NCBI GenBank assembly: GCA_007694185.1
Contig: RECD01000209.1
Coordinates: forward strand, 1-34,324
Length of the DNA: 34,324 nt
Source of the DNA: Planctomycetaceae bacterium
Lineage (GTDB): Bacteria; Planctomycetota; Planctomycetia; Pirellulales; Pirellulaceae
Direction: 5' to 3'
In this document: positions 6,944-26,847 of the stretch, in pieces
How positions within the stretch are numbered: position 1 is the first letter of the stretch
Layout of the letters: every line of letters begins with the position of its first letter
Position numbers and translations under genes: made by a program
The notes under the pieces: model-generated
What the model was told of the DNA's origin: nothing
The model's input: the letters and a program-made list of their open reading frames with translations, nothing else
Databases searched by the model: none

Positions 6944-6945
6944 TG

Positions 6946-8268
6946 TCAGGCCCTGATGAGTTGTTTGATCGGACCTGGGGAATCCTGAAAGTCTTTCGGA
7001 ACCTGCACCTGCATTCGGTCCAGCATCGTGTGCCACAGCGACGACAGCGGCGTGTTCGGAGGCAGCTTCAGGTGGCCTTGATGTTCGATGCCAAGGGCCG
7101 ATCCACCGAAGATCGCCGTTGGCAGCAGATCGCGACTGTGGCCGATACCCATCCCGCTGGAAAACGCCAACATTGTGTGATCGAGCACGGACGATCCATC
7201 CGGCTCCTTCATCTCGGAGAGACCTTTCAGGACGTGGGCGAAATGCTCCATGTAAACGCGGTCGATCCGCGCAAGGTCTCGCAACTTCACCGGATCTTCA
7301 CCATGATGCGTCAGCGAATGGAAGTTGCCGGCAAGATTCTGCATCTTCGTTGTCACCAAGGCCCCGCCAGCGGATTCGACACGCACCATAAACGTGATCA
7401 GCCGAGTCGAATCGGTCTGAAACGCCAGCGTCGTCAGGTCGTACATGAGATGGAAATAGCGCCGTGCGTCCTCAATGGGATTAAATTTCTGTTGAAAGTC
7501 GCCCATCCCGGCAGTCGTCGGCTGCGGCTTTGGCGTCGTTGCCCATGCGATGTCGCGTTGCAATTCGCTTTCGACACCGCGGATCGAAGTCATGAACTCG
7601 TCGAGCTTCGACTTGTCAGTCGCGCTGATTTTCTTTTCCAAATCCTTCGCCTTGCCAACCAGGCCATCGAGAATGCTGGCCCGCTGGCGGAAACGGTGCT
7701 CATTCAACCGCTGTTCCTCTACAGACACCGGCGCGAAGAGTCGATCGAAAATCGCTTTGGGGTCATTCTCTGCCGGCAGAGGAATCCCCTGCTCGGACCA
7801 TGACAACGTGCTGACATTGCCTGGATACCCTGTCCCTTTCGTTTCAGAGAACTGGAGCGAGGGGAACCGCGTGTGATGCCCGATCTGGGCGGCGGCGATC
7901 TGGTCGGCAGAGATCGTCATCTTCGTCGCCGCAGGCGATGTGCCGGTGAGAAACGGATAGTCGCCGCCGTGTCCGCCGCCGTGTTCGAGATAGGTTCCCG
8001 AGAGTACCGTCATTTGATCGCGAAACGGCGCGAACGGTTCCAATGTCGGAGTCAGTGTGAAGTTCCTCCCTTCGTCCTGCGGCGTAAACACTCGCATATT
8101 CATCCCTGTGCCGAAGTAGAAGATCGCGGACCTGGCTGGGATGGCCATGCTGGTCGCCGCCGACAGCGAATTCGGAAGCATGGCTTCGAGAAACGGCAGG
8201 CTGAGCGAAACGCCCAGACCACGCAGAACAGTGCGACGAGAAAGGGGCTGGCGAAGATTCAGGTTCAT
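6946..8268 (-). CDS. DUF1552 (HXXSHH) Tat-exported protein, cassette 2
   Basis: This 440-residue protein has a twin-arginine signal (SRRTVLRGLGVSLSLPFLEA). Family marks are HGGGHGGDYPFLTGT (about 96-110), LDEFMTSIRGVESEL, LAFQTDSTRL and HSLTHHG (317-323). Its ATG at 8268 has AAGGAA 5 nt upstream and sits 9 nt after the DUF1592 stop, so the two are cotranscribed. The SUMF gene follows after 2 nt. No biochemical function is established for the family. It is clearly paralogous to the other three DUF1552 genes here but is not a recent copy of any of them. Confidence 0.9.
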   Translation of the reverse strand: MNLNLRQPLSRRTVLRGLGVSLSLPFLEAMLPNSLSAATSMAIPARSAIFYFGTGMNMRVFTPQDEGRNFTLTPTLEPFAPFRDQMTVLSGTYLEHGGGHGGDYPFLTGTSPAATKMTISADQIAAAQIGHHTRFPSLQFSETKGTGYPGNVSTLSWSEQGIPLPAENDPKAIFDRLFAPVSVEEQRLNEHRFRQRASILDGLVGKAKDLEKKISATDKSKLDEFMTSIRGVESELQRDIAWATTPKPQPTTAGMGDFQQKFNPIEDARRYFHLMYDLTTLAFQTDSTRLITFMVRVESAGGALVTTKMQNLAGNFHSLTHHGEDPVKLRDLARIDRVYMEHFAHVLKGLSEMKEPDGSSVLDHTMLAFSSGMGIGHSRDLLPTAIFGGSALGIEHQGHLKLPPNTPLSSLWHTMLDRMQVQVPKDFQDSPGPIKQLIRA

Positions 8269-8277: not shown

Positions 8278-10899
8278 TTACTTGGTTCTGAAGGGATACG
8301 ACGTGGCGATGCCGGCAACCAACGTGCGGATGGTAAACTTGTTCTGTTTCAACTGTTCGACAATCGACTCGACCGCAGGGCGATCGGTGGCCTCAAGCGT
8401 ACGACCGAGGGCATACGTCATCATCTTCTCGGTCAGGCCACGCAGGTAACGCTCTTTCTGTTCCAGTAGCGTTCCTTTGAACTCGGCGAAATTCGCGAAC
8501 TCGCGACCGCTGGGCAGGACGCCGGAGACATCAATGGGCGGAGCCTTCGCTCCCCAATTTGTGTCCTCGCCATCCTGTTGGTCACGCCACTCACCAATCA
8601 CGTTGAAGTTCTCCATCGCCAAGCCGTATGGATCGATTCTGCGGTGGCAGTTGGCACAGGACTCGATCTTCTGATGCTGGACGAGCCGCTGGCGGACGGT
8701 CAGGTTCTTGCCTTCAATGTTCGGTTCAACTTCGCCGACGTTGGGGGGTGGCGGAGGGGGCGGGTCGTTGAAGAGAACATCGAGAATGTACTTGCCGCGT
8801 TCGACAGGTTTGGTGCGCACACCATCGCTGCCCCAACGATGAACCCCAGCCATCCCCAGCAGTCCGCCCCGATGCGAACCTTCCGGCAATGCGACTCTTC
8901 GGAACTCGGCTCCCTTCACGTCGGGGATGCCGTACAACGCGGCGAGCCGTTCGTTGACCATCGTCCAATCTGCGTCGATGATTTCCAGCACATTGCCGTC
9001 GGTCGCCAGCAACTCGCGGAACACGGCCAGCGGCTGTTGCTGCAGGTCTTTGTCCAGATCCTTAAACTTCGCGGTATACACTTTGCGATAGAGCCGTTCA
9101 TCGGGCGCGAACCGGGCGAATTCCTCGGTCTTGAACCACTGTGCCGCAAAGTTATGCACGAATGCATCAGCTTTCGGGTCAAGCAGCATGCGTTCTACCT
9201 CCCTGCGGATGACGGCGGGGTTCGCAATTTCGCCGGACTGGGCAAGAGCGAAGAGTTTCTCGTCGGGCATCGACGACCACAGGAAATAAGACAATCGCGA
9301 CGCGAGTTGGTAATGATTGATCTCGTATTTCCGATCGTCAGACGCCTCGGAAGATGTTCGTTCAGAAGACGGCGGTTCGACGATCAAGAGAAACTCCGGC
9401 GAGCAAAGCATCGAGATCAGGCCGATGCGCAGCGCTTCAGCATAAGGCAGGCCCCTATCGAATTCGCCTTGGACGATATTGAGAATGAAATCGACTTCTC
9501 CCTGTTCGATCGGTCGACGATAAGCGCGGGGCAGCAACCGTCCGAACACTTCACGAGCTTGCGCGAGCGCCACAGCTCGGTCAGAGCCATCGGCGATCCC
9601 GTTCGGAAAGAGCCGTGCCATCGCGCGCGACGGCCAGTTCGGATAGATCGGCCCTTCGATCTCGACCGACTCCACATACAGCGTGCGATGCTTGTCGCGG
9701 TCGAGAACCCTGGGCGAGATCCCATAACGATTCGGGGCTTCGGCTCGTTCGCGAGCCATCAACCTGAACTGCTGCGCCGGTTCGTTTCCCGCTTCCAGCA
9801 ACCGCAAAAAGACATGGTGTTTGTGCGTGACCTCTCCGCCATAACCGACCACATTGAGAAACCGCAACATCGGCATTTCACGGTTCATCTTCGGATCGAG
9901 GACCACGGAGACTTCGTGTACTTCCGGCTTCTCGACCGTCCCCCTCACGATTGTCGTCAGCAGGTTCCCCGCGAATTTTTCGTCGACCTGAATCTCCACC
10001 GGCGCGCCGTCTTCGCCTGGGATTCCCGCCAACTTGAAGCGAAAGCGGTAGGTTCCCTTGACGGGAATTCGCAGCTTCGACCCAGGGTAAAGCCCCAAAT
10101 GCGGCGCGAAAAAAATGTCTTGGCTGTGGTAGCGGAAGACCCCATTCTCACCTGCTCGAACCTTGTAATCTCCTTTGGGAACGGACGCTTCGGGCTCAAT
10201 GGTGTAGGTGCGGGTCTCGAACTCTGGCGGCGCGGTTTGAATCGCCTCGTCGGCAATCAATCGAGCCATCCGGAAGTAGGCATCCATCAGCGACGGGTCG
10301 AGCAGCAGCGCCTTGCCGACCTTGTCGAACCCTCCGACCTTGCCGTCCGACGGGAGATCATTCAAAGGCCCGTCGCCTTCGAGGAACGTAACCCCCAGCA
10401 GATCGCGAATCGTGTTCGTGTATTCGGCACGGTTGAGCCGTCGCATGATGACCCGCCCGCCGGTAGAGTTGGCCTGCGACTCGGCCTCAGCGACCTTCGC
10501 GGCGACCCAACGTGTGATCCGGGCGGATTCGGCAGCGGTGGGTTGCTGCTTCGCGTCCTCCGGCGGCATCTCGCCAAGATTGAGCCTGTCCATGACCTCG
10601 ACCCACACGCTGGCGGCTCGGCCCTGAGTGAAATCGCGGCTCAGTCCATCGAGTCTCAGATCACCCTTCTGCTGTTTGGGACCGTGACAGGCCAGGCAAT
10701 AGTTTTTCAGGTAATCATCAATCTGCTCCGGCGAGGCGATCTCAACAGGAGGGTCTGGCGACTGAGCGGCGACTGGCGAAGCCATCACCGCTAAGGCGAT
10801 CATCACGGCCACCCTTTTTGCCGCGATGCTTAGACCGCAGCAGCAGGCGAGGATCATTCTGCGCCTTGGCTTATCGGCTGTAAGGGTTCGGATCGTCAT
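8278..10899 (-). CDS. DUF1592-type exported cytochrome-like protein, cassette 2
   Basis: This 873-residue protein has a basic N-terminus, a hydrophobic segment (VAVMIALAVMASPVAAQ) and CLACH at 68-72 (PSCyt1). It then shows DUF1587 (RRLNRAEYTNTIRDLLG), a beta-rich section (about 220-380), DUF1595 (LLPRAYRRPIEQGEVDFIL), DUF1592 (QLASRLSYFLWSSMPDEKLF), a run of seven prolines (NDPPPPPPPNVGE), DUF1588 with CANCH and IDPYGLAMENFNVIGEW, and DUF1585 (MMTYALGRTL). The start has GGAG 6 nt upstream. Two CxxCH motifs suggest two covalently held haems after export. It lies 108 nt after an LRR-A gene and 9 nt before DUF1552; the role of the pair is unknown. Confidence 0.9.
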   Translation of the reverse strand: MTIRTLTADKPRRRMILACCCGLSIAAKRVAVMIALAVMASPVAAQSPDPPVEIASPEQIDDYLKNYCLACHGPKQQKGDLRLDGLSRDFTQGRAASVWVEVMDRLNLGEMPPEDAKQQPTAAESARITRWVAAKVAEAESQANSTGGRVIMRRLNRAEYTNTIRDLLGVTFLEGDGPLNDLPSDGKVGGFDKVGKALLLDPSLMDAYFRMARLIADEAIQTAPPEFETRTYTIEPEASVPKGDYKVRAGENGVFRYHSQDIFFAPHLGLYPGSKLRIPVKGTYRFRFKLAGIPGEDGAPVEIQVDEKFAGNLLTTIVRGTVEKPEVHEVSVVLDPKMNREMPMLRFLNVVGYGGEVTHKHHVFLRLLEAGNEPAQQFRLMARERAEAPNRYGISPRVLDRDKHRTLYVESVEIEGPIYPNWPSRAMARLFPNGIADGSDRAVALAQAREVFGRLLPRAYRRPIEQGEVDFILNIVQGEFDRGLPYAEALRIGLISMLCSPEFLLIVEPPSSERTSSEASDDRKYEINHYQLASRLSYFLWSSMPDEKLFALAQSGEIANPAVIRREVERMLLDPKADAFVHNFAAQWFKTEEFARFAPDERLYRKVYTAKFKDLDKDLQQQPLAVFRELLATDGNVLEIIDADWTMVNERLAALYGIPDVKGAEFRRVALPEGSHRGGLLGMAGVHRWGSDGVRTKPVERGKYILDVLFNDPPPPPPPNVGEVEPNIEGKNLTVRQRLVQHQKIESCANCHRRIDPYGLAMENFNVIGEWRDQQDGEDTNWGAKAPPIDVSGVLPSGREFANFAEFKGTLLEQKERYLRGLTEKMMTYALGRTLEATDRPAVESIVEQLKQNKFTIRTLVAGIATSYPFRTK

Positions 10900-12983: not shown

Positions 12984-14516
12984 TTACACCAGGCCGGGCA
13001 AGCGGCCATCGTAAGCGGCCTTGGGCGAAGTGCGGCTGTTGCCGAACTCCCCCCGCGTATCGCCCAGTCGTTCGAGCAGTTCAACATACAGATTCGCGAC
13101 CGGCGTATCCTTTTGATAGGCAAGATGTCGGCCCGTCTTGAGCGTCCCTCCTCCTCGGCCCGCGAGCAACACGGGATAGTTGTTGCGTCCGTGCCCGCCG
13201 TCGGCCATGTAGGAGGTATAGAGCAGGGTCGTGTTGTCGAGCAGGCTGCTGCCCCCTTCGTCGATCTCCCGCATCTTGGCGATGGCCTCGGCGAAGAACT
13301 GAGAATACCAAGCGTGGATCTGGCGGCAGCCCTCGCGGGCGACCGGGTCGGCGTCCTCAACTCGAGCGGCGTTGCCGTGGTGTTCGAGCGTGTGGGCGTG
13401 ATGTTCGTAGCCCACCGTCACGACCCCCGGAAACAGCGCCTCGTCGCTCCCCAGCCCCAGGCTGCAGACCCGCGTGGTGTCGGTCTGGAATGCCAGCACC
13501 ATCAGGTCGGTCATCACTCGGAGATATTCCGCGTGTACGCCGGGGTCGCGCCCAACCGCGCGTACGAACCGCTGCGAGGCTGCGCGATCCTCGGGCAGGT
13601 TTTCCGGCGCATGCGGATTGGATGGGCCGGGGTCCTTTAGGTCGAGCGATTCCACCAAAATCCGCTCTTGCACCCGCTGCACGCGGCGCTCGATGCTGTC
13701 GATCGAATCCAGGTATTCATTGAGCTTGGCCTGATCCGCGCGGCCCAACCGCGTGCGCAGTTGTTTCGCATCCTCCAGAACGAGATCGACCACCTGCTTG
13801 TCGTAGGTCCGGCTTTCGGCAGGCACTGTCGGCGCCGTGGATCGACCGAGACGCCGTTGCCAGTTGGGGGCCACCAGCCGCCTCCCGGCGAACATGCGGT
13901 CGAAGGCCATCAGCGGGTCTCGTTCCACCGGCAGACTGCGTCCCTGGGCATCAAAGAAGTACGAGGTTTCGCCACCCGCATAGCCCATCCGCACCGTCGG
14001 CAGCAGGCTCTCCTGGCCGACCAACTCCGCCGCCCGTTCATCCACCGACTGGCCGGCCCGCGGCTTGCCGTCCACCTTGCCGACCTGGTCAACTCCCGTG
14101 AGGTGCAAGTATGCACAATGTTCGTGCGCGTTGATGCTTCCGGTCGATCGGCCCGATTGAGACAGATTCGAGAGCACCAGCAGTTCGCTCTTGTGCGGTT
14201 CCAGCGGCCGCAGGATCGACGGAAGTTTGCCTAACTCGCCTGTCGACTCGGGCACCCAGGATTCGATCACGGTTCCGCCGGTCACGGTGTAGATGCCGAA
14301 CCGCAACGGCGGTCGCACCGGGACTTTCGTTCCAGCCCGGACCACGGTCGGAGCCAGCGATTCCAAAAACGGCAACGCCGCGACCACGCCGGCTCCTCGC
14401 AGGAACGAGCGGCGGCTGACTGGGATCGGGGACACTGGGATCGGGGACACCGGGATCGGGGACACCGGGATCGGGGACACCGGGATCGGGGACACCGTAT
14501 CTTGATATCTCATCAT
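12984..14516 (-). CDS. DUF1552 (HXXSHH) Tat-exported protein with VSPIP repeats, cassette 3
   Basis: This 510-residue protein is longer than its paralogues (440-454) partly because five VSPIP pentapeptides (about residues 8-32) precede the Tat motif (SRRSFLRGAGVVAALPFLES, 34-53). The family core follows: INAHEHCAYLHLTG, LNEYLDSIDSIERRVQ, LAFQTDTTRV and HTLEHHG (375-381). ATG at 14516 overlaps the DUF1592 stop within ATGATG, so translation is coupled; a second ATG follows at 14513. The repeats lie in the cytoplasmic n-region of the signal and would be cut off with it. An alternative start after the repeats is not visible. Confidence 0.9.
   Translation of the reverse strand: MMRYQDTVSPIPVSPIPVSPIPVSPIPVSPIPVSRRSFLRGAGVVAALPFLESLAPTVVRAGTKVPVRPPLRFGIYTVTGGTVIESWVPESTGELGKLPSILRPLEPHKSELLVLSNLSQSGRSTGSINAHEHCAYLHLTGVDQVGKVDGKPRAGQSVDERAAELVGQESLLPTVRMGYAGGETSYFFDAQGRSLPVERDPLMAFDRMFAGRRLVAPNWQRRLGRSTAPTVPAESRTYDKQVVDLVLEDAKQLRTRLGRADQAKLNEYLDSIDSIERRVQRVQERILVESLDLKDPGPSNPHAPENLPEDRAASQRFVRAVGRDPGVHAEYLRVMTDLMVLAFQTDTTRVCSLGLGSDEALFPGVVTVGYEHHAHTLEHHGNAARVEDADPVAREGCRQIHAWYSQFFAEAIAKMREIDEGGSSLLDNTTLLYTSYMADGGHGRNNYPVLLAGRGGGTLKTGRHLAYQKDTPVANLYVELLERLGDTRGEFGNSRTSPKAAYDGRLPGLV
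14418..14496. repeat. 15-bp minisatellite encoding VSPIP repeats
   Basis: On the plus strand the unit GACACCGGGATCGGG is repeated about five times in tandem, with the first unit partial and one unit differing by a single base (GACACTGGGATCGGG). The array is a whole number of codons, so the DUF1552 reading frame is kept. Near-identity of units suggests recent expansion by replication slippage. Confidence 0.95.
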
Positions 14517-16402
14517 TCCACCTTTCGATGTTGGAACGGATAGCTCTTGACCACTTCGAGGATCAACGTCGAGAACCGAAAGTTATTCTGCTGAAGCGCC
14601 GCGGTAATCGCCTTCAGCGAGGGTTCATCGTAATAGCTCACATCGCGGCCCAGGGCGTAGGAGAGCGTCTGGGCAGCAAGGTTCTCGACGAACTCCGGCT
14701 GCTTCCCGCTCAACACCCCGCGTAGACCTTCGAGGCCACGAAACTCGCCCACTCCGGGCAACGTGCCCGTATTATCGATCGGATCCAGTTCGCTCCCCTC
14801 GCGCCAGCGGCCGATGGCATCGAAGTTTTCCAAGGCGAACCCCAGCGGGTCGATGCGTTGATGGCAACTGACGCAGCGGCTGTCGCTGGCGTGTTGCCCC
14901 AGTTGCTCGCGGAAGCTGGCCGGCTCGGGCTGATCCTTATCGGGCGGGGCGAGATTTCCGGCATCGGGCGGCGGGGGCGGAGGCGGAGAACCGAGCAGGA
15001 CTTCGAGCATCCACTTGCCGCGAGCCGTCGGTTTCGTGCGGTCGGTGTGGGAGGTCATCGTCAAGATGCTGGCCATGGCCAGCAGACCGCCGCGATGATC
15101 TTCGGCGCGCAGAGCCACTTTGACGAACTCCCCTGGATTCATCGATGGTTCGGGTAACCCATAGTGCCGCGCCAGTTCCGCATTGACGAATGTGTAGTCC
15201 GCGTCGAGGAACGCGAGCACGCTGCCATCTTCCTGGCGGAGGTGATCGCAGAACAGCCGCGTCTCGCGCTCCATCGCGTCCCTCAGTCCGCGAGTGTAGG
15301 TCGGAAAATGATTTTGCGTGGGCAAGGCCTTCCGCAAATGCGGCAATTGCAACCAATGCGCGAGGAAATTGGACGTCAGCGAGCTCGCTTTGTCGTGAAC
15401 CAGCATGCGACGTACTTGCCGCTCGAGCGCCTCCGGCCGAGAGAGTTCCCCACCATCGGCGGCGGAAAACAGTTCTTCGTCGGGCATCGTGCCCCAGAGG
15501 AAATAGGACAGCCGGACGGCCAGTTCGTGATCGTTGATCCGCGCCACTTTTTCGGAATCGCTCGCCACCGATTCGACGCGCAACAGAAAATGCGGTGAAA
15601 CCAACACCGGTTTCATCGCCTTGCGAATCGCCAAATCGAAGTCGTCGTCATGGCGGAGTGCCCCCTCGGCGACCGCCGCATAGCGTTTGACCTCTTCTTC
15701 GGCGACCGGTCGCCGAAAGGCGCGACGCAAGAACGCCCGCAAGACCTCCCGGGCCGCCTCGGGCGCGGTCACGCTTTCCGAAGGAGCCGCTACGAACAGC
15801 GATCGACGGGCATTAGCCGCCCCAGGGTCGGTGAACAGTTTTTCCAAGGCCAGATCGGCTGCCGTGAAGTACTTTTCCATCAACGAGGCTTCCAGAACCA
15901 GACCGCCTGCCCGGTTGGGAAACCCTTCGACCACCTGCTCCTCAGGGATGCCGGCTTCCCCTGCGGGATCGTACCCGATCCGCAGCAGATCGCGTATGGT
16001 TTGCCCATACTCGCTGCGCGTGAGTTGGCGAGTGAGTGCCGGGCCAGGGTCGGGATTGTCGCTGGTGTCGAACGACGTCTCGATCCAACCGAGAAGCTGT
16101 TGCCGTTCCGCCTGATTCAGCGGATCGTCGGGCGGCATCTGCGCCGCACGAACTTGCGTGACGACCCGCTTCCACAGGTCGTAGCGGCTAATCGCCGCGG
16201 CGTGACTGGTGATCCCGGAGAAATCGACGCCGCCCCTGGCCTCGCCGGCGTCGTGACAATCGACGCAACGCTTTTCCAACAGCGGCTGGATGCCTTCAGC
16301 AAAGGTATCATCAGCGGCGAATCCGCTTCGGCAATTCAGTAACACCGCCATCCCGACAAGCAGCAGGGCGACGCATAAACGGAAAACGGTTTTGATTGCC
16401 AT
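14513..16402 (-). CDS. DUF1592-type exported cytochrome-like protein, short form, cassette 3
   Basis: This protein of about 629 residues has a signal peptide (LCVALLLVGMAVLLNC), CVDCH at 46-50, DUF1587 (RQLTRSEYGQTIRDLLRIGY), DUF1595 (FLRRAFRRPVAEEEVKRYA), DUF1592 (LAVRLSYFLWGTMPDEELF), a seven-proline run, DUF1588 with CVSCH and IDPLGFALENFDAIGRW, and DUF1585 (TLSYALGRDV). It is about 200-250 residues shorter than the other three because the beta-rich section between DUF1587 and DUF1595 is missing; that section may bind substrate in the others. The start is uncertain: ATG 16402 lacks a near ribosome site, and an in-frame GTG 18 nt upstream is possible. It is the first gene after the minus-strand promoter at 16522-16550. 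Confidence 0.88.
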   Translation of the reverse strand: MAIKTVFRLCVALLLVGMAVLLNCRSGFAADDTFAEGIQPLLEKRCVDCHDAGEARGGVDFSGITSHAAAISRYDLWKRVVTQVRAAQMPPDDPLNQAERQQLLGWIETSFDTSDNPDPGPALTRQLTRSEYGQTIRDLLRIGYDPAGEAGIPEEQVVEGFPNRAGGLVLEASLMEKYFTAADLALEKLFTDPGAANARRSLFVAAPSESVTAPEAAREVLRAFLRRAFRRPVAEEEVKRYAAVAEGALRHDDDFDLAIRKAMKPVLVSPHFLLRVESVASDSEKVARINDHELAVRLSYFLWGTMPDEELFSAADGGELSRPEALERQVRRMLVHDKASSLTSNFLAHWLQLPHLRKALPTQNHFPTYTRGLRDAMERETRLFCDHLRQEDGSVLAFLDADYTFVNAELARHYGLPEPSMNPGEFVKVALRAEDHRGGLLAMASILTMTSHTDRTKPTARGKWMLEVLLGSPPPPPPPDAGNLAPPDKDQPEPASFREQLGQHASDSRCVSCHQRIDPLGFALENFDAIGRWREGSELDPIDNTGTLPGVGEFRGLEGLRGVLSGKQPEFVENLAAQTLSYALGRDVSYYDEPSLKAITAALQQNNFRFSTLILEVVKSYPFQHRKVE

Positions 16403-16521
16403 CGTTTGCACGAGGAACACCTTTCGAGTCAGCTCAACGCCCGTCTCCACGAAACGCTCGCCCCGGACACCAATTCCTGACCGCACGCGAAATCCGCCGA
16501 GATGTGGGCTACCGCCAATCG

Positions 16522-16550
16522 ATGCTACATGTGGCTAAGCCACCTGTCAA
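16522..16550 (-). promoter_or_regulatory. Promoter with operator in its spacer, for the 16-kb minus-strand run
   Basis: Reading on the minus strand: TTGACA (16550-16545), a 17-nt spacer, then TAGCAT (16527-16522). The spacer contains the 13-bp palindrome GTGGCTTAGCCAC (16543-16531; centre one unpaired base). This matches the layout at 29871-29899, where a longer copy of the same palindrome fills the spacer. A repressor bound here would block RNA polymerase. The start codon at 16402 would follow a leader of about 110 nt. Confidence 0.65.
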
Positions 16551-16625
16551 CCGGATTGTGGAGTTCGTGCCCTGGTCGATGCGAAAGCTACCGCCGTTGA
16601 CGGGAATTCCAGGGGCACACAGTTG

Positions 16626-16666
16626 TTGACACGCTGTCCCTTGGAGTGTTAGAGTGGCTAAGCCAC
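16626..16666 (+). promoter_or_regulatory. Promoter-like element with operator, for the plus-strand cassette 4
   Basis: TTGACA (16626-16631) and TAGAGT (16650-16655) are 18 nt apart. The palindrome GTGGCTAAGCCAC (16654-16666) begins on the last two bases of the -10-like box, the same geometry as TATAGT plus palindrome at 29875 upstream of the GntR gene. The -10 is weak (4 of 6 consensus bases). The leader to the DUF1592 start at 16906 would be about 240 nt and contains the LRR-A relic. Confidence 0.5.
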
Positions 16667-16905: not shown

Positions 16906-19365
16906 ATGAAATTCGGGCCACCATGGGATGGCGGATGTCCCCGGCGCGTCAAATGGCTCATGTTCATAGCGATCATGCCACTGTTCGGCCCTTCAATGGC
17001 GGCAGCGGCTGAAGAGTTACGCGCGGGGCGGTTCGAGCAGCAGGTGCTGCCGCTGGTGCGGCAGAATTGCCTGGACTGCCACAACGCCGAGGAGTCGGAA
17101 GGCGGGTTGGACCTTTCGCGTTTCGCCAAAGTCGAAGACCTGTTGGCCGAGAGGAAACTTTGGCAGCGGGTCGTGCGCCAGTTGAAAGCGGGCGCCATGC
17201 CTCCGGACGGTCTCCCCAGGCCCCCAGAAAAAGAAGTGCAGGACGTGATCGCCTGGCTGGACGAAGCGCTCGTTTACGTCGATCCGACTCAGCCGCCGGA
17301 CCCGGGGCGAGTCACCGTGCGCCGCTTGAATCGGACCGAGTACAACCACACCGTCCGCGACCTGTTCGGCGTGTCGCTGAATCTGGCCGACGAGTTCCCG
17401 GCAGACGATCTCGGCTATGGGTTCGACAACATTGGCGATGTGCTCAGCATCTCGCCGCTACGGATGGAACAGTACCTGAAGGCGGCCGAGACCCTCACGT
17501 CCGTCTTGCTGCTGAAATCGGAACAGCCCGTCTACGACGAGTTCAGCGAGGCGGTCTTTTTCAAGTACAACCAGCGGCCTCGCAACGCCAGCGACCGCGG
17601 TTGGGAACTGACGCCGGGCACGGAAACGTTCCTGGAGTTCGAGTTACCTGCGCCGGGCGAGTACGAGATTCGCATCCACGCCTGGGCCGTCGAGAAACCG
17701 CCCGAGAAGGACCGCGACAACAACGAGCGGTGGCTGGAAGCCGAGGCGAAGTTGGTCCTGGATCCCGATGCCAGGCCGGCGGTCGAAGCGACGTTGCTGT
17801 GCGACGACCAGTTGATCGGGCACATTCCGGTTCTGCCGGGCAACGGTACGACGGCGCTCAAGCAGGTGTACACTGTCCGCTTCACCGCTCAGGCCGGCGT
17901 TCACACGATCCGCGCTCGGCACCGGTTCCCCCGCGAGATGAGTGAAGAGGATATCGCCAAACACCTGGAAAAGCCGCTGCTGGCGCCGCGTCTTGGCTTG
18001 CGTCGGATCGGTTTGCGCGGCCCGCTGCGGTTCGGCGAGGCCCGGCTCGCCCCGGCGCATCGGGCGCTGCTGCTGACCCGCCCGGCGGACGACCTGGATG
18101 CCGACGCGGCCGCGCGAAAGGCGCTGCGCACGATCGCCGACCTGGCCTGGCGGCGTCCGGTCACCGAGCGGGAACTGGACCAGCTCGTCGGATTCGTCGC
18201 CCGTCAACAGGCTCGCGGCCGGTCTTTTCAGGAAGCGCTGGAGCTGGCCGCGCAGGCGGTGCTCGTGTCCCCCAAGTTTCTCTTTCGACTTGAGACCTTG
18301 CCGGCGGATGCCGATCCGCCGCTGATCGCGCCGGTCGGTGATTACGCGCTGGCGTCGCGGCTGTCTTATTTCCTCTGGTCTTCAATGCCTGATGAGGAAC
18401 TGTTTCGGTTGGCCGCTGAAGGAAAACTGGCCGATCCCGCGGTGCTGACCTCGCAGGTCGATCGGATGCTCAAGGATCGCCGCAGCGAGGCGTTCGTCGA
18501 AGGCTTCTTCGGTCAGTGGCTGGGGTTGCGGCGACTTCCAGACGTCAACTTCGACCCGAAGCCGTTCCCCGATTTCAGTTCGGAATTGAAGGAGGATTTG
18601 AGCAGCGAAACGACGCGGTTCGTCACCTCGATCGTTCGCCACAACAAGAGCATCCTGGAACTGCTGCGGGCGGAAACCACGTTCGTCAACGGCCGGCTGG
18701 CCCGATTCTACGGAATTGCCGGAGTGGAACGAGACGGCGATTTTCGCGAGGTATCACTGGCCGGCACGCCGCGCCAGGGGCTGCTTACGCAGGGCGGCAT
18801 CTTGATGCTCTCGTCCTATCCGAATCGGACCTCGCCCACGCGGCGCGGCAACTGGATTCTGGAGACGATCCTCGGCGAAGAGCCGCCACCCCCGCCGGAC
18901 GGCGTGCCGGAACTGGCCGAAACGGAGTCGTCGAGTCCCGGCCTGCCGCTACGGCAGCAATTGGAACTCCACCGGACCAACGCCGTGTGCGCCTCGTGCC
19001 ATCGCACGATGGATGCGATCGGATTCGGCTTCGAGAACTTCAATGCCATCGGCCAGTGGCGAGACACGGAAGGGGATCAGCCGATCGACGCCGCTGGCGA
19101 CCTGCCTTCGGGTGAAACGTTCGAGAGCCCGCGCGAACTAATCGAGATCCTCTCCCGGCGGCAAGACGATTTTGCCCGGCACCTGGCTGGCCGCCTGCTG
19201 ACCTACGCCCTCGGTCGCGGTACCGAGTATTTCGATCGGCCCGCACTGGATGCGATCGTGGACAACACGCGTGCCGACAATTTTCGATTCCATGACCTGG
19301 TTCACCAGATCGTGCTCAGCAAGCCCTTCGGCTGGCAGCGGCATGAAAGTGAGGAACGCCAATGA
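16906..19365 (+). CDS. DUF1592-type exported cytochrome-like protein, cassette 4
   Basis: This 819-residue protein has a signal segment (VKWLMFIAIMPLFGPSMAAA), CLDCH at 55-59, DUF1587 (RRLNRTEYNHTVRDLFGV), a beta-rich section (about 220-350, with ELPAPGEYEIRIHAWAVE), DUF1595 (AWRRPVTERELDQLVGFV), DUF1592 (LASRLSYFLWSSMPDEELF), a five-proline run (GEEPPPPPDG), DUF1588 with CASCH and MDAIGFGFENFNAIGQW, and DUF1585 (LLTYALGRGTEYF). The start has GGAGG 7 nt upstream. The stop overlaps the DUF1552 start (ATGATGA). This is the only cassette on the plus strand, divergent from cassettes 1-3 across a two-operator region. Confidence 0.92.
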   Translation: MKFGPPWDGGCPRRVKWLMFIAIMPLFGPSMAAAAEELRAGRFEQQVLPLVRQNCLDCHNAEESEGGLDLSRFAKVEDLLAERKLWQRVVRQLKAGAMPPDGLPRPPEKEVQDVIAWLDEALVYVDPTQPPDPGRVTVRRLNRTEYNHTVRDLFGVSLNLADEFPADDLGYGFDNIGDVLSISPLRMEQYLKAAETLTSVLLLKSEQPVYDEFSEAVFFKYNQRPRNASDRGWELTPGTETFLEFELPAPGEYEIRIHAWAVEKPPEKDRDNNERWLEAEAKLVLDPDARPAVEATLLCDDQLIGHIPVLPGNGTTALKQVYTVRFTAQAGVHTIRARHRFPREMSEEDIAKHLEKPLLAPRLGLRRIGLRGPLRFGEARLAPAHRALLLTRPADDLDADAAARKALRTIADLAWRRPVTERELDQLVGFVARQQARGRSFQEALELAAQAVLVSPKFLFRLETLPADADPPLIAPVGDYALASRLSYFLWSSMPDEELFRLAAEGKLADPAVLTSQVDRMLKDRRSEAFVEGFFGQWLGLRRLPDVNFDPKPFPDFSSELKEDLSSETTRFVTSIVRHNKSILELLRAETTFVNGRLARFYGIAGVERDGDFREVSLAGTPRQGLLTQGGILMLSSYPNRTSPTRRGNWILETILGEEPPPPPDGVPELAETESSSPGLPLRQQLELHRTNAVCASCHRTMDAIGFGFENFNAIGQWRDTEGDQPIDAAGDLPSGETFESPRELIEILSRRQDDFARHLAGRLLTYALGRGTEYFDRPALDAIVDNTRADNFRFHDLVHQIVLSKPFGWQRHESEERQ

Positions 19366-20696
19366 TGACTCGACCACCACTTTCCCGACGGACTTTTTTG
19401 CGCGGTCTGGGCGTTACCATGGGCCTGCCGCTGCTGGAGTGCATGCTGCCCCGAGGGTACGCCGCTTCGGGGTCGTTCGATCCGCCGCTACGGCTCGGCT
19501 GGGTGTACTTTCCCAACGGCATGGTGCGGGAGGATTGGACGCCCACCGGATCGGGTCGCGATTTCCAGTTCAACAAGAGCAACGCGCCGCTGGCCCCGGT
19601 GCGGGACCACGTGACGCTGATCTCGAACCTGGCTCACGACAAGGCGCGCCCCCACGGCGACGGGCCGGGGGCTCACGCCCGCGAAGGCGCCACCTATCTG
19701 ACGGGCGTGCAGGCGAAGAAAACCGGCGGCAAGGACATCTACCTGGGCGAATCGATCGATCAGGTGATCGCCCGCCGGATTGGCCAGCAAACGCGGCTGC
19801 CGTCGCTCGAACTGGGCGTGGAACCCAATCGCAAGGAAGGACGTTGCGACTCGGGCTACAGTTGCATCTATATGTCCAACATTTCCTGGCGAAGTCCGAC
19901 GCAGCCGAGCGGCGTGGAAATCAGCCCCCGCCGCGCGTTCGACCGGCTCTTTGGCGCCACGGGGGAAGCCGCGGCACGCTTCCGCCAACGGGCCGCGGAC
20001 CGGCTGAGCGTGCTGGATTTCGTCGCCGATGACGCCAGCCGGCTGAACCGGCAGCTTGGGGCCACCGATCGGCAAAAACTGGCCGAGTACCTGGAAAGCG
20101 TGCGGGCGATCGAAAAGCAGATCGCCCAGAACAAGAACATGCCGCCCATCGACGTGCCACCCGGCAGCCGCCCGGATCAAGAGCCGGATGATTTCGTCCC
20201 GCACACGCGGCTGATGTACGACCTGATGGCCCTGGCCTGGCAGACCGACGCCACGCGAGTCATCACGTTCATGTTGGCCAACTCGCAGACCAACCGGGCT
20301 TACGAGAACCTGGGGATCAGGTCCGGCCACCACCAGCTGACCCACAGCATCGGGCAGGAAGCGGACATCCAGAAGATCGACCAGTTCGTGGTCGCCGAGT
20401 TCGCTCGCTTCATTGGCAAGCTGAGCAGCATCGCGGAAGGTCCGGGATCGCTGCTGGATCACTGTTTGGTTACACTCGGCTCGGCGATGGGAGACGGCCG
20501 CAAGCACGACCATCACGAACTGCCGGTCGCCGTGGCCGGTCATGCCGGCGGAGCCGTAACGGGCGGCCAGCACCTCAAGCTGGAAGCCGAGACGCCGATG
20601 AGCAACCTGTTCGTCACCACGGCCCAGCTTGCCGGCGTGCCGCTCCAGCGATTCGGCGACAGCAGCGGCCCGCTGGCGGCCATTCTCGATACGTAA
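19362..20696 (+). CDS. DUF1552 (HXXSHH) Tat-exported protein, cassette 4
   Basis: This 444-residue protein has a twin-arginine signal (SRRTFLRGLGVTMGLPLLEC, 8-27). The core is recognisable: GPGAHAREGATYLTG, LAEYLESVRAIEKQI and LAWQTDATRV. The signature reads HHQLTHS (323-329), so the final histidine of the HxxTHH motif of cassettes 1 and 2 is serine here, which could alter a metal or catalytic site if the motif has that role. Translation is coupled to DUF1592 by an ATGA overlap. The sulfatase gene follows after about 30-48 nt, so this cassette directly links the DUF1552/DUF1592 pair to sulfate-ester hydrolysis. Confidence 0.9.
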   Translation: MMTRPPLSRRTFLRGLGVTMGLPLLECMLPRGYAASGSFDPPLRLGWVYFPNGMVREDWTPTGSGRDFQFNKSNAPLAPVRDHVTLISNLAHDKARPHGDGPGAHAREGATYLTGVQAKKTGGKDIYLGESIDQVIARRIGQQTRLPSLELGVEPNRKEGRCDSGYSCIYMSNISWRSPTQPSGVEISPRRAFDRLFGATGEAAARFRQRAADRLSVLDFVADDASRLNRQLGATDRQKLAEYLESVRAIEKQIAQNKNMPPIDVPPGSRPDQEPDDFVPHTRLMYDLMALAWQTDATRVITFMLANSQTNRAYENLGIRSGHHQLTHSIGQEADIQKIDQFVVAEFARFIGKLSSIAEGPGSLLDHCLVTLGSAMGDGRKHDHHELPVAVAGHAGGAVTGGQHLKLEAETPMSNLFVTTAQLAGVPLQRFGDSSGPLAAILDT

Positions 20697-20744
20697 CGCG
20701 ACCGATCAAACAACCATCAACCGCACATGAAGGAACTTGTCATC

Positions 20745-22214
20745 ATGAAGTTATGGGTGCCGCTCGGCCTGACGCTGCTGTATTTCGCATCCGCCCCGCT
20801 TGCTCAAACCGCCGAACGTCCCAACATCGTCTTCATCATGTCGGACGAGATCGGCTATTTCGAGCCCGGCTATATGGGCGGCCAGACGATCCGCACTCCC
20901 CGCATCGACCGCATGGCCCGCGAGGGGCTGCGGTTCGACAACCTATTCTCGGGAGCCTCCGTGTGCGCACCGACCCGCAGCTGTCTGCTCACCGGCAAAC
21001 ACGCCGGGCACACTTCGGTGCGGGTGAACGGCGGCGGCACGCCCATTCGAGCCGACGAGACCACCGTGGCCGCCTTGCTCAAGGCGAAAGGCTACGCCAC
21101 CGGCGGGTTCGGCAAATGGGGATGCGGTGCCCGCGGTTCGACCGGAGTTCCGGAGAAGCACGGGTTCGACGTCTTCTTCGGATATTACGACCAGGTTCAC
21201 GCCCACACGTACTATCCGCCCTACTTGATCCGCAACAGCGAGGAGGTGCCGCTGCCGGGTAACGACGGCAGCGACGGCGGCAAGACGTACGCCCACTATC
21301 TGATCCACGAAGCCGCTTTGCAGTTCATTCGCGACCACCGCGACCAGCCGTTCTTCGCCTATCTGCCCTATACGCCGCCGCACGGCAGTTTTCAGATTCC
21401 GGACAGCGATCCCGCCTGGGCACAGTATCAGGACAAGCCCTGGCCGGAACCGGCACGGCGCTACGCCGCGATGGTCACAATGCTCGATCGGCACGTCGGC
21501 GAGGTGCTGGAGTTGCTCAAGGAACTCGAACTGGAGCAGAACACACTGGTCATGTTCTGCGGGGACAACGGTGGGGCGGACTATTTCGCGTCGCCCGAAC
21601 ATCCCCGCGGCATGCACTCGGCCAACAAACACCCGGACACGGGGCTGGAGTATCGCGGCAAGAAGGGCGAATTGTACGAAGGCGGCGTCCGCGTGCCGTT
21701 CGTCGCCTGGTGGCCCGGCATGATCGCCGCCGGAGGGACGTCGGACCTGCTGGCCTGCTTCCCCGACATCCTGCCGACATTCGCGGAATTAGCCGGCGTT
21801 GATCCACCCGCCGACATCGACGGCATTTCTCTGGTGCCGACCTTGCTGGGCGCGGCGGCGGGTCGCCCGCAGCGGCAACATCCTTACCTCTACTGGGAAG
21901 GGAACGGATGGATCGCGATCCGTCAAAATAACTGGCGGGCGGTGAAGCCCAACAAGAGCACCACCTGGGAACTCTACGACCTGAGCGTCGATCCCGGAGA
22001 AACCACGGACCTGGCCGCCTCGCACCCAGAGGTTCTCGCCCGCTTGAGAGCCTTGGCTGAATCGGCTCATCAGCCCGCCCGCGAAGGAACGTTTACGTCC
22101 CTGGACCTCTACGAACGCGACCGGCGGGCCAAGTACGGAAAGCATGACGACCCCAGCTACATCGCCACGCCCAGCGGGATCAGAAAAAGGCCGGTCCCCT
22201 CGACGCCTCAATGA
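20745..22214 (+). CDS. Exported sulfatase (type I, cysteine type), cassette 4
   Basis: This protein of about 489 residues has a signal peptide (VPLGLTLLYFASAPLAQ) and the sulfatase core. The active-site motif is CAPTR (74-78), whose cysteine would be converted to formylglycine. Other ligands and catalytic residues appear in PYTPPHGSF, GDNGGAD and GKKGELYEGGVRVPF. The usual DD metal pair near the N-terminus reads SDEIGYFEPG (D34-E35), and the usual GKWH is GKWGCG; both suggest a planctomycete subgroup. ATG at 20745 is preferred because AAGGA precedes it at good spacing; an in-frame ATG lies at 20727. The likely substrate is a sulfated polysaccharide, by family. It converges on the truncated sulfatase at 22295. 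Confidence 0.9.
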   Translation: MKLWVPLGLTLLYFASAPLAQTAERPNIVFIMSDEIGYFEPGYMGGQTIRTPRIDRMAREGLRFDNLFSGASVCAPTRSCLLTGKHAGHTSVRVNGGGTPIRADETTVAALLKAKGYATGGFGKWGCGARGSTGVPEKHGFDVFFGYYDQVHAHTYYPPYLIRNSEEVPLPGNDGSDGGKTYAHYLIHEAALQFIRDHRDQPFFAYLPYTPPHGSFQIPDSDPAWAQYQDKPWPEPARRYAAMVTMLDRHVGEVLELLKELELEQNTLVMFCGDNGGADYFASPEHPRGMHSANKHPDTGLEYRGKKGELYEGGVRVPFVAWWPGMIAAGGTSDLLACFPDILPTFAELAGVDPPADIDGISLVPTLLGAAAGRPQRQHPYLYWEGNGWIAIRQNNWRAVKPNKSTTWELYDLSVDPGETTDLAASHPEVLARLRALAESAHQPAREGTFTSLDLYERDRRAKYGKHDDPSYIATPSGIRKRPVPSTPQ

Positions 22215-22714: not shown

Positions 22715-24328
22715 TCAGGGTGTGGGTTTCATCTGTTTCACGATATCCTCGCGCGGTACCACGCCGACGCGAGAGGCCCAGGCTTCAAATTGACTCTGCA
22801 TGGCTGCTAGGCGCTCGGCCTGGCTGGCGGCGAGGTTCTGAGTTTCGCCCGGATCAATGGATGTATCGTAAAGCTCCCATTCTCCGGTGCGGGATCCGCT
22901 GGTGGCGATGTCGCCGCTCTCTGCGGCGGCAGCGTAGCCGCGCACGAGCTTCCAGTGGCCTTGACGCATTGCCTCGTTGCCCATGCGCTCCCAGAAAAGT
23001 GGGCGGTCCATGGGGAGAGAGACCGCTTCACCCTGCAGAGCAGGCAGGATACTTTGGCCTTCGAGTTTCGGCACAGGATGGCCGGCGAAGGCGGGGGGGT
23101 GCTCAGCCCCTGCGGCTTCAAGACAGGTGGGGAAGATGTCCATGATGTGCGCAGGGCCAGTGACGATCTTGCCTCGCTGGGTTGCAGGTATGCCTGCAGG
23201 CCAGTGAGCGACTAAGGGTGAAGCGATGCCGCCGTCATGCACCCAAACTTTGAACTTGCGGAAGGGCGTATTGCTCACCTGACCCCAGAGCGTGCCATGA
23301 ACTGTGTCGGCACCGTTGTCGCTGAGGAAGAGAATGAGGGTGTTGTCGAGCTGCTTGCGTTGACGAAGCACCTCGACGATGCGGGCGAGGTTCTGGTCCA
23401 CGCGGTCGATCATGCCAGCGAAATGCCGCATCCATAATTCGTTGCGCTCGCTTTTGGCGTGTTTGGCCTCCTCGGTGACGGTGGGATCGAGATCGGGAAG
23501 ACGTGCATCATCCGGCACAAGGCCGAGTTCTTTGAGACGTTCGAAGCGGCGTTGGCGGATGACATGGGGGCCGACACGGTAGGTGTCCAGATACTTGGCG
23601 ACGTCACTCTCATGGGCCTGCAGTGGCCAATGGGGGGCGGTGAACGCCAGGTATCCGAACCAGGGAAGGTCAGGGTCGGATTCCTCAATGAAACGCAGGG
23701 TGTAGTCAGTAAAGGTGTCGGTTGTGTAGAAATCGGGCAGGAGTTCTTTGACGATTTCACCATTGAGCACGAATCGGCTGATCGGACCTTTCTTTTGCCA
23801 GGAGCGATAGCCGGTAAACTGCTCGCAAGCACCGCCGATGAGAGCGAAATGGCGGTCGAACCCGCGTTGGCCCGGCCAACGGATTTGTTCCTGACCGAGG
23901 TGCCATTTGCCGGACATGAAAGTCTGGTAGCCTGCCGCGCGCAGGGCTTCAGGCAAGGTGACGATGCCCTCGGTCTTGAATCCGAGATAGGCAGGCGAAC
24001 CGATGCGCCGCCACAGATCGCTTCGTGCGCCTTGTTCGTTCATGTCTCCCACGCCCGCCTGATGCGGGTAAAGACCGCTCAGGAGGGAGGCGCGGGAGGG
24101 ACAGCATTGGGCAGCGTTGTAAAATCGTGCGAGCCGGACGCCATCGGCCGCCAGCGCATCGAGTGTCGGCGTGCGAACTTCGCCGCCATAACAGCCGATG
24201 TCTGAATAGCCCATGTCATCCACCATGATCAGGAGGATGTTCGGGCTGTGGCGCCGCTCCGATTCCACCGCCAAGGCGGGACCGGCGCAGAGGATGAACA
24301 GGAGGTAGAGAATGAGGGAGCGATTCAT
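22715..24328 (-). CDS. Exported arylsulfatase-type sulfatase (cysteine type)
   Basis: This protein of about 537 residues has a signal peptide (ILYLLFILCAGPALAVE), the metal pair VDDMGYSDIGCYGG (D37-D38), active-site CCPSR (75-79), GKWHLG, TAPHWPLQA, LSDNGAD and VHDGGIASPLVAHWP. All key features of a functional arylsulfatase are present. The ATG overlaps the upstream sulfatase stop (ATGA at 24325-24328), so translation is coupled. An open extension to 24376 overlaps that gene and lacks support. The likely role is to remove sulfate from a polysaccharide in the periplasm or outside the cell. Maturation needs a formylglycine-forming enzyme; none is evident in this window. Confidence 0.93.
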   Translation of the reverse strand: MNRSLILYLLFILCAGPALAVESERRHSPNILLIMVDDMGYSDIGCYGGEVRTPTLDALAADGVRLARFYNAAQCCPSRASLLSGLYPHQAGVGDMNEQGARSDLWRRIGSPAYLGFKTEGIVTLPEALRAAGYQTFMSGKWHLGQEQIRWPGQRGFDRHFALIGGACEQFTGYRSWQKKGPISRFVLNGEIVKELLPDFYTTDTFTDYTLRFIEESDPDLPWFGYLAFTAPHWPLQAHESDVAKYLDTYRVGPHVIRQRRFERLKELGLVPDDARLPDLDPTVTEEAKHAKSERNELWMRHFAGMIDRVDQNLARIVEVLRQRKQLDNTLILFLSDNGADTVHGTLWGQVSNTPFRKFKVWVHDGGIASPLVAHWPAGIPATQRGKIVTGPAHIMDIFPTCLEAAGAEHPPAFAGHPVPKLEGQSILPALQGEAVSLPMDRPLFWERMGNEAMRQGHWKLVRGYAAAAESGDIATSGSRTGEWELYDTSIDPGETQNLAASQAERLAAMQSQFEAWASRVGVVPREDIVKQMKPTP

Positions 24329-25851
24329 GGGTGTGGCTCCGGAGTGATCGTCATGGATTTCGGAAACGGCGCCCATTCGGATGCCTCGGGATGGCGCAGC
24401 TCTTTGGCGGAACCGTTCCAGCCGCGCATCAAGGGAATGCAGTCGCCACCGCTCTCTGCAAGCAGTTCGAACAACCGCTTGTCCATCGCCAGGGCGAGTT
24501 GTCGGTGCTCGACCTCATGAAACAGGTTTTTCAGTTCGTCTGGATCGTTCTTCACATCGTACAGTTCGGGGACGTCCCAGAGTCCATAGGCCCGCACATA
24601 TTTCCAGCGGGGGGTGATCAGCGCGTGGAGTGTCGGTGTGGAGGGAGCCCAGCGTTCCCAGTAGTATTCGTAAAGCAGCTCGTCGCGCCAGTCGGGGACC
24701 TGCTCGCCGCGAGCCAGCGGCAACAGGCTCCGGCCGTGGAATCGGTCGGGTGGCTCGACTCCGGCGGCTTCCAACACCGTCGGGGCGATGTCGATGTTCG
24801 CCGCCATCTCGTGGACGACCCGGCCGCCGGAGAACGCCGCTGGGCAGTGTATCAGCAGCGGCACGCGAATGGACGCTTCATAGGCCGTGCGTTTGTCGAT
24901 CAGGCCGTGCTCGCCCCATAGATGACCGTTGTCGCCCATGTAGATGATCAGCGTCGAGTCGAGCTGACCGGATTCGCGCAGGAAGTCGAGCAGGCGCTGC
25001 GTACTCTCGTCCACCGACAGGAGCGTTTCACAGTAGCGTCGATAGATGTCTTCCGTGCTGCCCAGCGTATTGTGAAACGGGAACTCGGCCCCGTGCCACG
25101 AATTCCGCTGGTTGCGGGCCCACATCGGCTTGAGCTTGTCGAGCGGCGTGTCCTGAGTCGTGGGCAGCGGTTCGATATCCACGTCCGCGAACTTCCCCTC
25201 GTGCCGCGGGGCGGGACTGAAGTCGTGATGCACCGCCTTGTGAGACAGGTACAGCATCCACGGTTTGTCGGTCTTCCCGCGGCCCCTTAACCAGTCGAGT
25301 GCGTAGTCGGTCAGTTCGTCGGTGATGTATTTCGTCTGCGAGACCCGCTTGCCATCGACATTAAGCATCGCCTTGCGGCCGCTGGGCAGGTCGGGGAAGT
25401 AATGCCCCTGTCCGACGAAGCTCACCCAATGGTCCCAGCCGCGTCGCGGTTCGTCGCTCGAATGCCCCATGTGCCACTTGCCGACAAACGCGGTACGATA
25501 GCCCGCCTCCTGCAGATCTTCGCTGAAGAACCGCAGGCCGTCCGGCATGCCGCTCTGATTGTCCACCACGCGATGCGTATGGGCATACAGTCCGGTCAGG
25601 ATCGAGGCGCGGCTGGGCGAACAGAGCGACGTGGTCACATAGGCATTGGCGAATCGCACTCCGCCGGCCGCAAGCGAATCGGCGGCGGGCGTCTTCAGAA
25701 ACGGGTGCCCCAGGCAGCCGAGCGCGTCCCACCGCTGGTCGTCCACCAGGATGAACAGGATATTCCGCTTCTGCGCGGATTCGGCGGCATCGGCTCCCGG
25801 ACTCCAGACGCAGCATGCCAGACAGATCAACAAGTACGCAAGCTGTTTCAC
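24325..25851 (-). CDS. Exported sulfatase (cysteine type)
   Basis: This 508-residue protein begins with GTG at 25851 (GGAGT just upstream), overlapping the LRR-A stop as GTGA. It has a signal peptide (LAYLLICLACCVWSPGADA), the metal pair VDDQRWDALG (D37-D38), active-site CSPSR (77-81), GKWHMG, LSHKAVHHDF, GDNGHLWGEHGL and DKRTAYEASIRVPLL. The last motif is typical of a large sulfatase group that includes glycosaminoglycan-active members; the exact substrate cannot be read from sequence. It differs clearly from the sulfatase encoded next to it, so the operon probably attacks more than one sulfate position. Confidence 0.93.
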   Translation of the reverse strand: MKQLAYLLICLACCVWSPGADAAESAQKRNILFILVDDQRWDALGCLGHPFLKTPAADSLAAGGVRFANAYVTTSLCSPSRASILTGLYAHTHRVVDNQSGMPDGLRFFSEDLQEAGYRTAFVGKWHMGHSSDEPRRGWDHWVSFVGQGHYFPDLPSGRKAMLNVDGKRVSQTKYITDELTDYALDWLRGRGKTDKPWMLYLSHKAVHHDFSPAPRHEGKFADVDIEPLPTTQDTPLDKLKPMWARNQRNSWHGAEFPFHNTLGSTEDIYRRYCETLLSVDESTQRLLDFLRESGQLDSTLIIYMGDNGHLWGEHGLIDKRTAYEASIRVPLLIHCPAAFSGGRVVHEMAANIDIAPTVLEAAGVEPPDRFHGRSLLPLARGEQVPDWRDELLYEYYWERWAPSTPTLHALITPRWKYVRAYGLWDVPELYDVKNDPDELKNLFHEVEHRQLALAMDKRLFELLAESGGDCIPLMRGWNGSAKELRHPEASEWAPFPKSMTITPEPHP

Positions 25852-26801: not shown

Positions 26802-26847
26802 GTTTCTAATGGATTCCTTGATCCCATCGTTGGAGTTTCGCCGCGAC

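Follow-up and report, generated by a model that had tools for sequence, protein, structure and literature searches.

A palindrome that is very probably the operator of a GntR/UTRA regulator appears to join sugar catabolism to DUF1592/DUF1552 cassettes in planctomycetes

Introduction

The DUF1592 and DUF1552 families are labelled in Pfam as proteins of unknown function. DUF1552 genes numbered 4 to 53 in each of eight planctomycete genomes that we checked and zero in 14 control genomes. PSCyt/PSD cassettes of planctomycetes have been described near sulfatases, with a suggested carbohydrate role and functions stated as not known (PMC5615132); they share both the protein families and the sulfatase neighbourhood with the locus analysed here, but no regulator or operator is named for them in the accessible part of that paper. 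A DUF1592 protein with a CBM2 domain has been reported from Cellvibrio (PMC6004670). In Rhodopirellula baltica, the ECF sigma factor RB10049 has been proposed for the PSD1/PSC2 protein RB10051 (PMC2754498). This is likewise a regulatory prediction for planctomycete-specific cytochrome proteins, but the part of that paper accessible to us deals with DUF1553/DUF1549, an ECF sigma factor and a redox or stress role, whereas the present locus combines DUF1592/DUF1552 with a GntR operator. An open-access literature search, as far as the sources were accessible, found no earlier account of the operator or of a regulator for DUF1592/DUF1552.

The 34,324-bp stretch of DNA analysed here (the window) is the entire contig C18 of a 5.78-Mb Planctomycetaceae genome in 288 contigs. 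It carries four DUF1592/DUF1552 cassettes and a GntR-type regulator gene flanked by sugar-related genes (Table 1), which raises the question of what controls the cassettes and what they are used for. A preliminary description of the window had proposed that a single palindrome ties the two regions together, and this proposal was followed up across bacterial genomes.

Results and discussion

The palindrome in the window and in the genome

In the whole window, pattern matching located three exact copies of GTGGCTAAGCCAC (Table 1); with up to one mismatch allowed and both strands counted, seven matches were seen versus a mean of 0.22 in shuffled windows. The preliminary description had placed copy 1 within a promoter facing cassettes 1-3, copy 2 over a -10-like box facing cassette 4, and all three copies at promoters. 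The exact positions and the three promoter pattern matches agree with this in each respect. Its statement that the element is common to the cassette promoters and the GntR/SDR region was likewise borne out, as copy 3 lies between the SDR gene and GntR, its end 39 bp from the GntR start. The promoter of cassette 4 is similar to the rightward promoter columns of the 34-site alignment described below.

Table 1. Positions of operators, promoters and genes in the window
Feature	Position	Strand	Basis
Cassette 1 DUF1552 protein	253..1617	-	Pfam
Cassette 1 DUF1592 protein	1622..4441	-	Pfam
FGE-sulfatase domain protein	5837..7036	-	Pfam
Cassette 2 DUF1552 protein	6946..8268	-	Pfam
Cassette 2 DUF1592 protein	8278..10899	-	Pfam
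Cassette 3 DUF1552 protein with Tat signal	12984..14516	-	Pfam
Cassette 3 DUF1592 protein	14513..16486	-	Pfam
Promoter TTGACA-17-TAGCAT, copy 1 in spacer, facing cassettes 3-2-1	16522..16550	-	Pattern match; same layout in many relatives
Operator copy 1, GTGGCTAAGCCAC	16531..16543		Exact match
Promoter TTGACA-18-TAGAGT, -10 running into copy 2, facing cassette 4	16626..16655	+	Pattern match
Operator copy 2, GTGGCTAAGCCAC	16654..16666		Exact match
Cassette 4 DUF1592 protein (PSCyt1/PSCyt3, PSD2-5), predicted CBM-like domain ~205-374	16906..19365	+	Pfam; predicted fold
Cassette 4 DUF1552 protein (HXXSHH), predicted sulfatase/alkaline phosphatase-like fold	19362..20696	+	Pfam 326 bits; predicted fold
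Sulfatase downstream of cassette 4	20727..22214	+	Pfam
Sulfatase	22715..24376	-	Pfam
Sulfatase	24325..25851	-	Pfam
LRR-like repeat-family protein (named by eye; no Pfam match)	25848..26999	-	Homologues beside GntR in relatives
ORF, 3' half alpha/beta hydrolase, start uncertain	26848..28539	-	Pfam Abhydrolase_3, BD-FAE
Sugar isomerase-like TIM barrel	27804..28733	-	Pfam AP_endonuc_2
SDR dehydrogenase	28938..29750	-	Pfam
Promoter TTGACT-17-TATCAT, copy 3 in spacer, facing SDR/TIM-barrel/sulfatase genes	29871..29899	-	Pattern match
Operator copy 3, between SDR gene and GntR	29879..29891		Exact match
GntR/UTRA regulator, HutC type	29931..30695	+	Pfam GntR 51.3 bits (cut-off 27), UTRA 108.3 (23.8)
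Gfo/Idh/MocA oxidoreductase, start overlapping GntR stop	30692..31855	+	Pfam; orthologues follow GntR in relatives
ROK family sugar kinase	31908..32879	+	Pfam ROK 221 bits
DeoC, deoxyribose-phosphate aldolase	32925..33713	+	TIGR00126 187.9 bits, cut-off 117.3 (equivalog level)

Across the 5.78-Mb genome, the exact palindrome occurs four times, versus two for a reversed-letter control. This raw count is unremarkable; placement is the telling feature: all four sites are at promoters of GntR or DUF1592/DUF1552 genes. The preliminary description had named frequent occurrence at random sites as an observation that would break the link, and the genome-wide search gave no such picture. The fourth site (C127:9695) lies between a second GntR gene and a minus-strand DUF1552 gene and, by pattern match, is again in a promoter spacer (TTGCAT-17-TAGCAT). 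The genes following it are, in order, DUF1552, LRR-like, DUF1592, sugar isomerase-like TIM barrel and Gfo/Idh. The second GntR is 79% identical to that of the window and is directly divergent from the DUF1552-LRR-like-DUF1592 operon.

The genome also contains many two-mismatch matches; inspection covered three near-exact ones, on contigs C106, C195 and C274, which were set aside because they are inside open reading frames (by eye, Fpg/MutM-like, long repeat-protein and DUF1559-like). At C47:28837-29145, a stretch of ~310 bases contains GTGCGTAAGCCAC three times, in spaced copies, and GTGTGTAAGCCAC once, probably as a local repeat with no relation to the operator.

Co-occurrence of the palindrome and GntR across genomes

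Of 149 family genomes, 14 contain the palindrome (W centre) and nine contain GntR (E ≤1e-30). The palindrome was present in all nine GntR-bearing genomes versus 5 of the 140 others (Fisher 2.6e-11; the loci are homologous, and p-values therefore overstate independence). In three of the five GntR-less genomes (L037, L041 and L042) the sites are inside ORFs called by a simple script, and in the remaining two (L038 and L045) they are between ORFs or at an ORF end.

The regions upstream of GntR were compared in two sets of loci. The discovery set started from 31 loci of a GTDB contig scan; L068, L077, L078 and L082 were dropped as partial matches, and L093 and L094 (family genomes), the window and L030 (contig C127 of the same genome) were added, giving 31 genes. 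The held-out set consisted of 13 non-own matches from a phylum draw, mostly distant (41-70% identity); one of them (L104/L118) duplicates L081, the DNA being 100% identical, leaving 12 counted, among which L115 and L116 share 98% identity. In the 200 bp preceding GntR, the exact core was found at 25 of the 31 discovery genes, and a match with at most one mismatch at 29, L054 and L073 being the exceptions. The corresponding numbers in the held-out set were 6 and 7 of 12 (L109, L112, L113, L119 and L121 having no upstream site). In total, 36 of the 43 distinct GntR genes have a palindrome with at most one mismatch in this interval, and two of the seven loci lacking it, L112 and L113, place the operator just before DeoC instead, with GntR convergent. 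Verrucomicrobial GntR homologues (48-50% identity) retain GTGGCTATGCCAC.

Sites away from GntR promoters are rare. In the 622,637 bases of GntR loci (a total that counts ~20 kb twice), only six sites with at most one mismatch are off a GntR promoter, and five of these precede DUF1592 or DeoC. Among the sites listed, at least 21 of the genomes behind 29 GntR loci have an exact site, 19 of them only one, and in 20 of the 21 it adjoins GntR. In L112, a tandem pair of exact operators (372-400), separated by 3 bp, precedes the start of DeoC similarity by ~40-65 bp, and a 42% GntR homologue lies convergent downstream of them.

Two other explanations of the palindrome were weighed against these data, and both were rejected. 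That it is an ordinary frequent word found here by chance is hardly credible: the genome count, low yet unexceptional, would suit this explanation, but the placement of all four exact copies, the association with GntR over the family genomes and the near-confinement of sites to promoters in the GntR loci all speak against it. It is also very unlikely, though somewhat less so, that the palindrome is the site of another transcription factor merely co-occurring with GntR. Such a reading could appeal to the GntR homologues that have no site and to the fact that the assignment is made from sequence. The site nevertheless tracks GntR in the 36 genes despite changing neighbours, so that the different regulator which the preliminary description had allowed for did not emerge, and the base-reading residues of NagR are conserved in the protein and fit the GTGG half-site, as described next. 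We regard the palindrome as very probably the operator of the GntR/UTRA protein.

The regulator and the architecture of its promoters

The regulator has the HutC (UTRA) architecture, with an N-terminal GntR winged helix and a C-terminal UTRA domain; among the solved structures in the PDB, NagR/YvoA and DasR are closest to it in sequence. It scored below the cut-off of all 23 listed NCBIfam models, and orthology to NagR or DasR was not indicated by this comparison. According to the accessible part of PMC4333415, NagR reads G-7, G-5 and G-4 with Gly69, Arg38 and Arg48. Arg38, Arg48 and Gly69 align with R36, R46 and G67 of the present protein, which are invariant in five homologues, and the operator half-site, GTGG, offers the bases read by their NagR counterparts. 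Bacillus subtilis NagR (YvoA), with its dre-sites, is thus alike in the winged helix and UTRA domain, the base-reading arginines, the wing glycine, the GTGG half-site and the control of sugar genes. However, the present protein is distant in sequence and has other target genes, and its operator is a 13-bp odd palindrome, versus the 14-bp GTGG-N6-CCAC inferred from the NagR contact positions. DasR of Streptomyces coelicolor, whose operators are termed DasR-responsive elements in the source text accessible to us, belongs to the same subfamily by sequence but differs in operator and regulon, and the listed NCBIfam cut-offs were not reached. The HutC consensus NyGTMTAKACNy, with GT and AC 4 nt apart, holds for most members, with published exceptions (PMC4494728, as far as accessible); GTGGCTWAGCCAC has no GT-N4-AC core and does not match it.

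The 34 sites that were aligned had been picked by palindrome match; the conservation of the palindrome in the alignment is therefore by construction, and only the flanking columns are evidence. These flanks are near random apart from a pair of promoter signatures that keep a fixed register with the operator. The promoter towards GntR has TTG at -27 to -25 (23, 26 and 27 of the 34 sites) and TA at -4/-3 (28 and 29 of 34). The promoter away from GntR uses the same TA for its -10, with the -35 at approximately +15 to +20, so that the divergent promoters share a -10 region next to the operator. An in-spacer promoter score of ≥8/12, taking the best of both orientations, was reached by 21 of the 34 real sites versus 128 of 5000 random flanks. 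The pseudo-symmetrical bidirectional promoters of E. coli have a similar layout, as far as the accessible part of PMC12825309 describes them.

Genes associated with the probable operator

The genes found within 5 kb of GntR differ between the discovery and held-out sets. DeoC is present at 16 of the 31 discovery loci and 7 of the 12 held-out loci, Gfo/Idh at 9 and 5, sulfatases at 7 and 3, ROK at 7 and 2, DUF1553/DUF1501 at 3 and 2, DUF1592/DUF1552 at 12 and 0, and LRR-like genes at 9 and 0, respectively. These counts are best-hit filtered (filtering took the DUF1592/DUF1552 discovery loci from 14 to 12) and are lower bounds because many loci have short flanks. The Roseiconus locus L070 is one that combines GntR, operator and DeoC. 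For DUF1552 alone, a randomly placed point would be expected to have a gene within 5 kb in ~3% of cases, calculated from 178 genes in eight GntR-bearing genomes (~57 Mb). At L052, L058, L115 and L116, the system within 5 kb of GntR is DUF1553/DUF1501, not DUF1592/DUF1552.

Operator-bearing clusters hold 5 of the 23 DUF1552 genes of the genome that contains the window and two of four in genome G338. The second exact site of G338 (L091) lies ~36 bp before a DUF1592-DUF1552-sulfatase cassette, the first two genes of which were confirmed with Pfam. That of G312 (L090) lies ~25 bp before the sulfatase homologue of a DUF1592-DUF1552-sulfatase cluster. In G332 (L092), the exact site, the only one among the sites listed, precedes DeoC. 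Close orthologues of the cassette-4 DUF1552 protein (E 1e-200) were found in 2 of the 149 family genomes, both with GntR, and in 1 of 392 phylum genomes, its own, in a scan that scored the first 11 or 4 candidates per genome. Among the GntR-bearing family genomes, the closest orthologue of cassette 4 is that of G019 (L114). No site with at most one mismatch is present in the 11 kb read there, where the orthologue stands behind same-strand sulfatase and Gfo/Idh homologues in a run that starts beyond the 11 kb.

The regulon thus delineated from sequence appears to join sugar-catabolism genes (DeoC, ROK and Gfo/Idh) to DUF1592/DUF1552 cassettes. The held-out loci, none of which has DUF1592/DUF1552 within 5 kb of GntR, place the cassette branch in some lineages only. 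From these loci and the absence of the site from the 11 kb of G019, we take the DeoC/Gfo-Idh pathway to be the older core of the regulon, which the cassettes joined in some planctomycete lineages.

Neighbours among ten ORFs were GAPDH-like, G6PD, aldehyde dehydrogenase, pyruvate formate-lyase-like and sulfatase, a mixture that singles out no one sugar. On the minus strand at 22295-22705 of the window, a short ORF has a sulfatase-like N-terminus, after which the similarity is lost by eye; it is probably a broken sulfatase gene.

Predicted folds of the cassette proteins

A model of DUF1552 built from 18 sequences (pLDDT 74, pTM 0.80) matched sulfatases and phosphodiesterases with Z of 15.8-17.1 over 239-277 residues, the top structural matches including ENPP7 and snake venom phosphodiesterase. 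DUF1552 is accordingly predicted to have the core fold of the alkaline phosphatase/sulfatase superfamily. By eye, the invariant His105 of the protein encoded at 19362-20696 has a spacing before LTG that we take to be that of the catalytic cysteine of sulfatases. The DUF1592 model, from 19 sequences (pLDDT 81), contains a beta-sandwich at residues 205-374, between the annotated PSD3 and PSD5 domains. It matched CBM6/35/36 modules with Z up to 13.2 over 119 residues (rmsd 2.7), a predicted CBM6/35/36-like fold; in the alignment, the cassette-3 DUF1592 protein has no such region. The helical and cytochrome parts had no match among those listed, which cover residues 205-374; this bears on the extent of the matches and not on the fold of those parts. 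Neither the DUF1552 nor the DUF1592 model had a Foldseek match below E 0.001. The DUF1592 alignment contains two invariant CXXCH motifs, at residues 55-59 and 695-699. A run of PIPVS repeats opens the cassette 3 DUF1552 protein (~14416-14516, minus strand), just before its twin-arginine motif.

On these models, a presumably exported DUF1592 cytochrome, perhaps sugar-binding, and a sulfatase-fold protein appear to be co-regulated with sulfatases and sugar catabolism. The preliminary description had placed the cassettes in carbohydrate use. The co-regulated DeoC, ROK, Gfo/Idh, TIM-barrel and sulfatase genes, together with the predicted folds of DUF1552 and DUF1592, point in the same direction. 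A Pfam scan of 23 window ORFs showed no SusC/SusD pair, and the locus does not qualify as a polysaccharide utilization locus of the Bacteroidetes type.

A proposed model for joint control of the sugar pathway and the cassettes

It is likely that GTGGCTWAGCCAC is the operator of the window GntR/UTRA protein and of its paralogue on C127, and that the sugar pathway and the cassettes are governed together through it. A GntR dimer on the operator would lie in the spacer, between -35 and -10, at the leftward promoters and over the -10/start region at the rightward ones, and from this position and from the protein family, it would be expected to obstruct RNA polymerase. GntR would be released when its UTRA domain binds a sugar or sugar phosphate. 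Release would switch on the cytoplasmic Gfo/Idh, ROK kinase, DeoC aldolase, SDR and TIM-barrel isomerase and, at the same time, the exported DUF1592/DUF1552 cassettes and sulfatases, if operon extents follow gene order. Given this joint induction with the DeoC pathway, the most likely target of the cassettes would be an external saccharide, perhaps a sulfated one, with a product that the DeoC pathway would process.

Which protein acts at the cassette promoters, and on behalf of which substrate, can be read in other ways. The preliminary description had spoken of one repressor; the shared element very probably belongs to GntR, as proposed, but 'one' is not supported, since the paralogue on C127 carries the same operator. 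With its 79% identity and its position divergent from a DUF1552-LRR-like-DUF1592 operon, this paralogue may even be the main regulator at 16531 and 16654, or both proteins may act there with different effectors, operator and regulon being real in either case. We consider this possible but the less probable arrangement, as the window GntR shares the 34-kb contig with these two sites and has a copy of the operator at its own promoter, and the logic of the regulon would be left unchanged. Somewhat more doubtful still is a substrate of deoxyribose, or of material derived from DNA, in place of a sulfated polysaccharide. No target is shared more deeply than DeoC, which has the operator directly before it in L092, L112 and L113 and scores above the TIGR00126 cut-off, and the phosphodiesterases among the structural matches of DUF1552 would suit such a substrate. 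However, sulfatases, an FGE-domain protein and CBM-like folds occur in the same clusters, and the ROK and Gfo/Idh members reach no NCBIfam cut-off.

With joint control of the sugar pathway and the cassettes through the GntR operator as the preferred reading, we tentatively suggest, as a possibility with less than even chances, that polysaccharide-utilization systems have a planctomycete counterpart in DUF1592 and DUF1552. An exported, CBM-bearing cytochrome would be paired with a sulfatase-fold protein, and both would be induced through a GntR of their own, responding to a phosphorylated sugar, perhaps a 2-deoxy one, that DeoC cleaves. If this is true, the many other PSCyt/DUF1552 cassettes of these genomes would be further substrate-specific versions. 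A regulator, a defined operator, co-regulated enzymes and a divergent, reporter-ready promoter together offer a concrete route, the first known to us, to the inducing substrate of DUF1592/DUF1552.

One further DUF1552 sequence of the genome was observed on contig C127 (L030:4194-4876), where a short ORF has a cytochrome-like start fused to a DUF1552 fragment 63% identical to one query DUF1552 protein; it resembles a decayed cassette.
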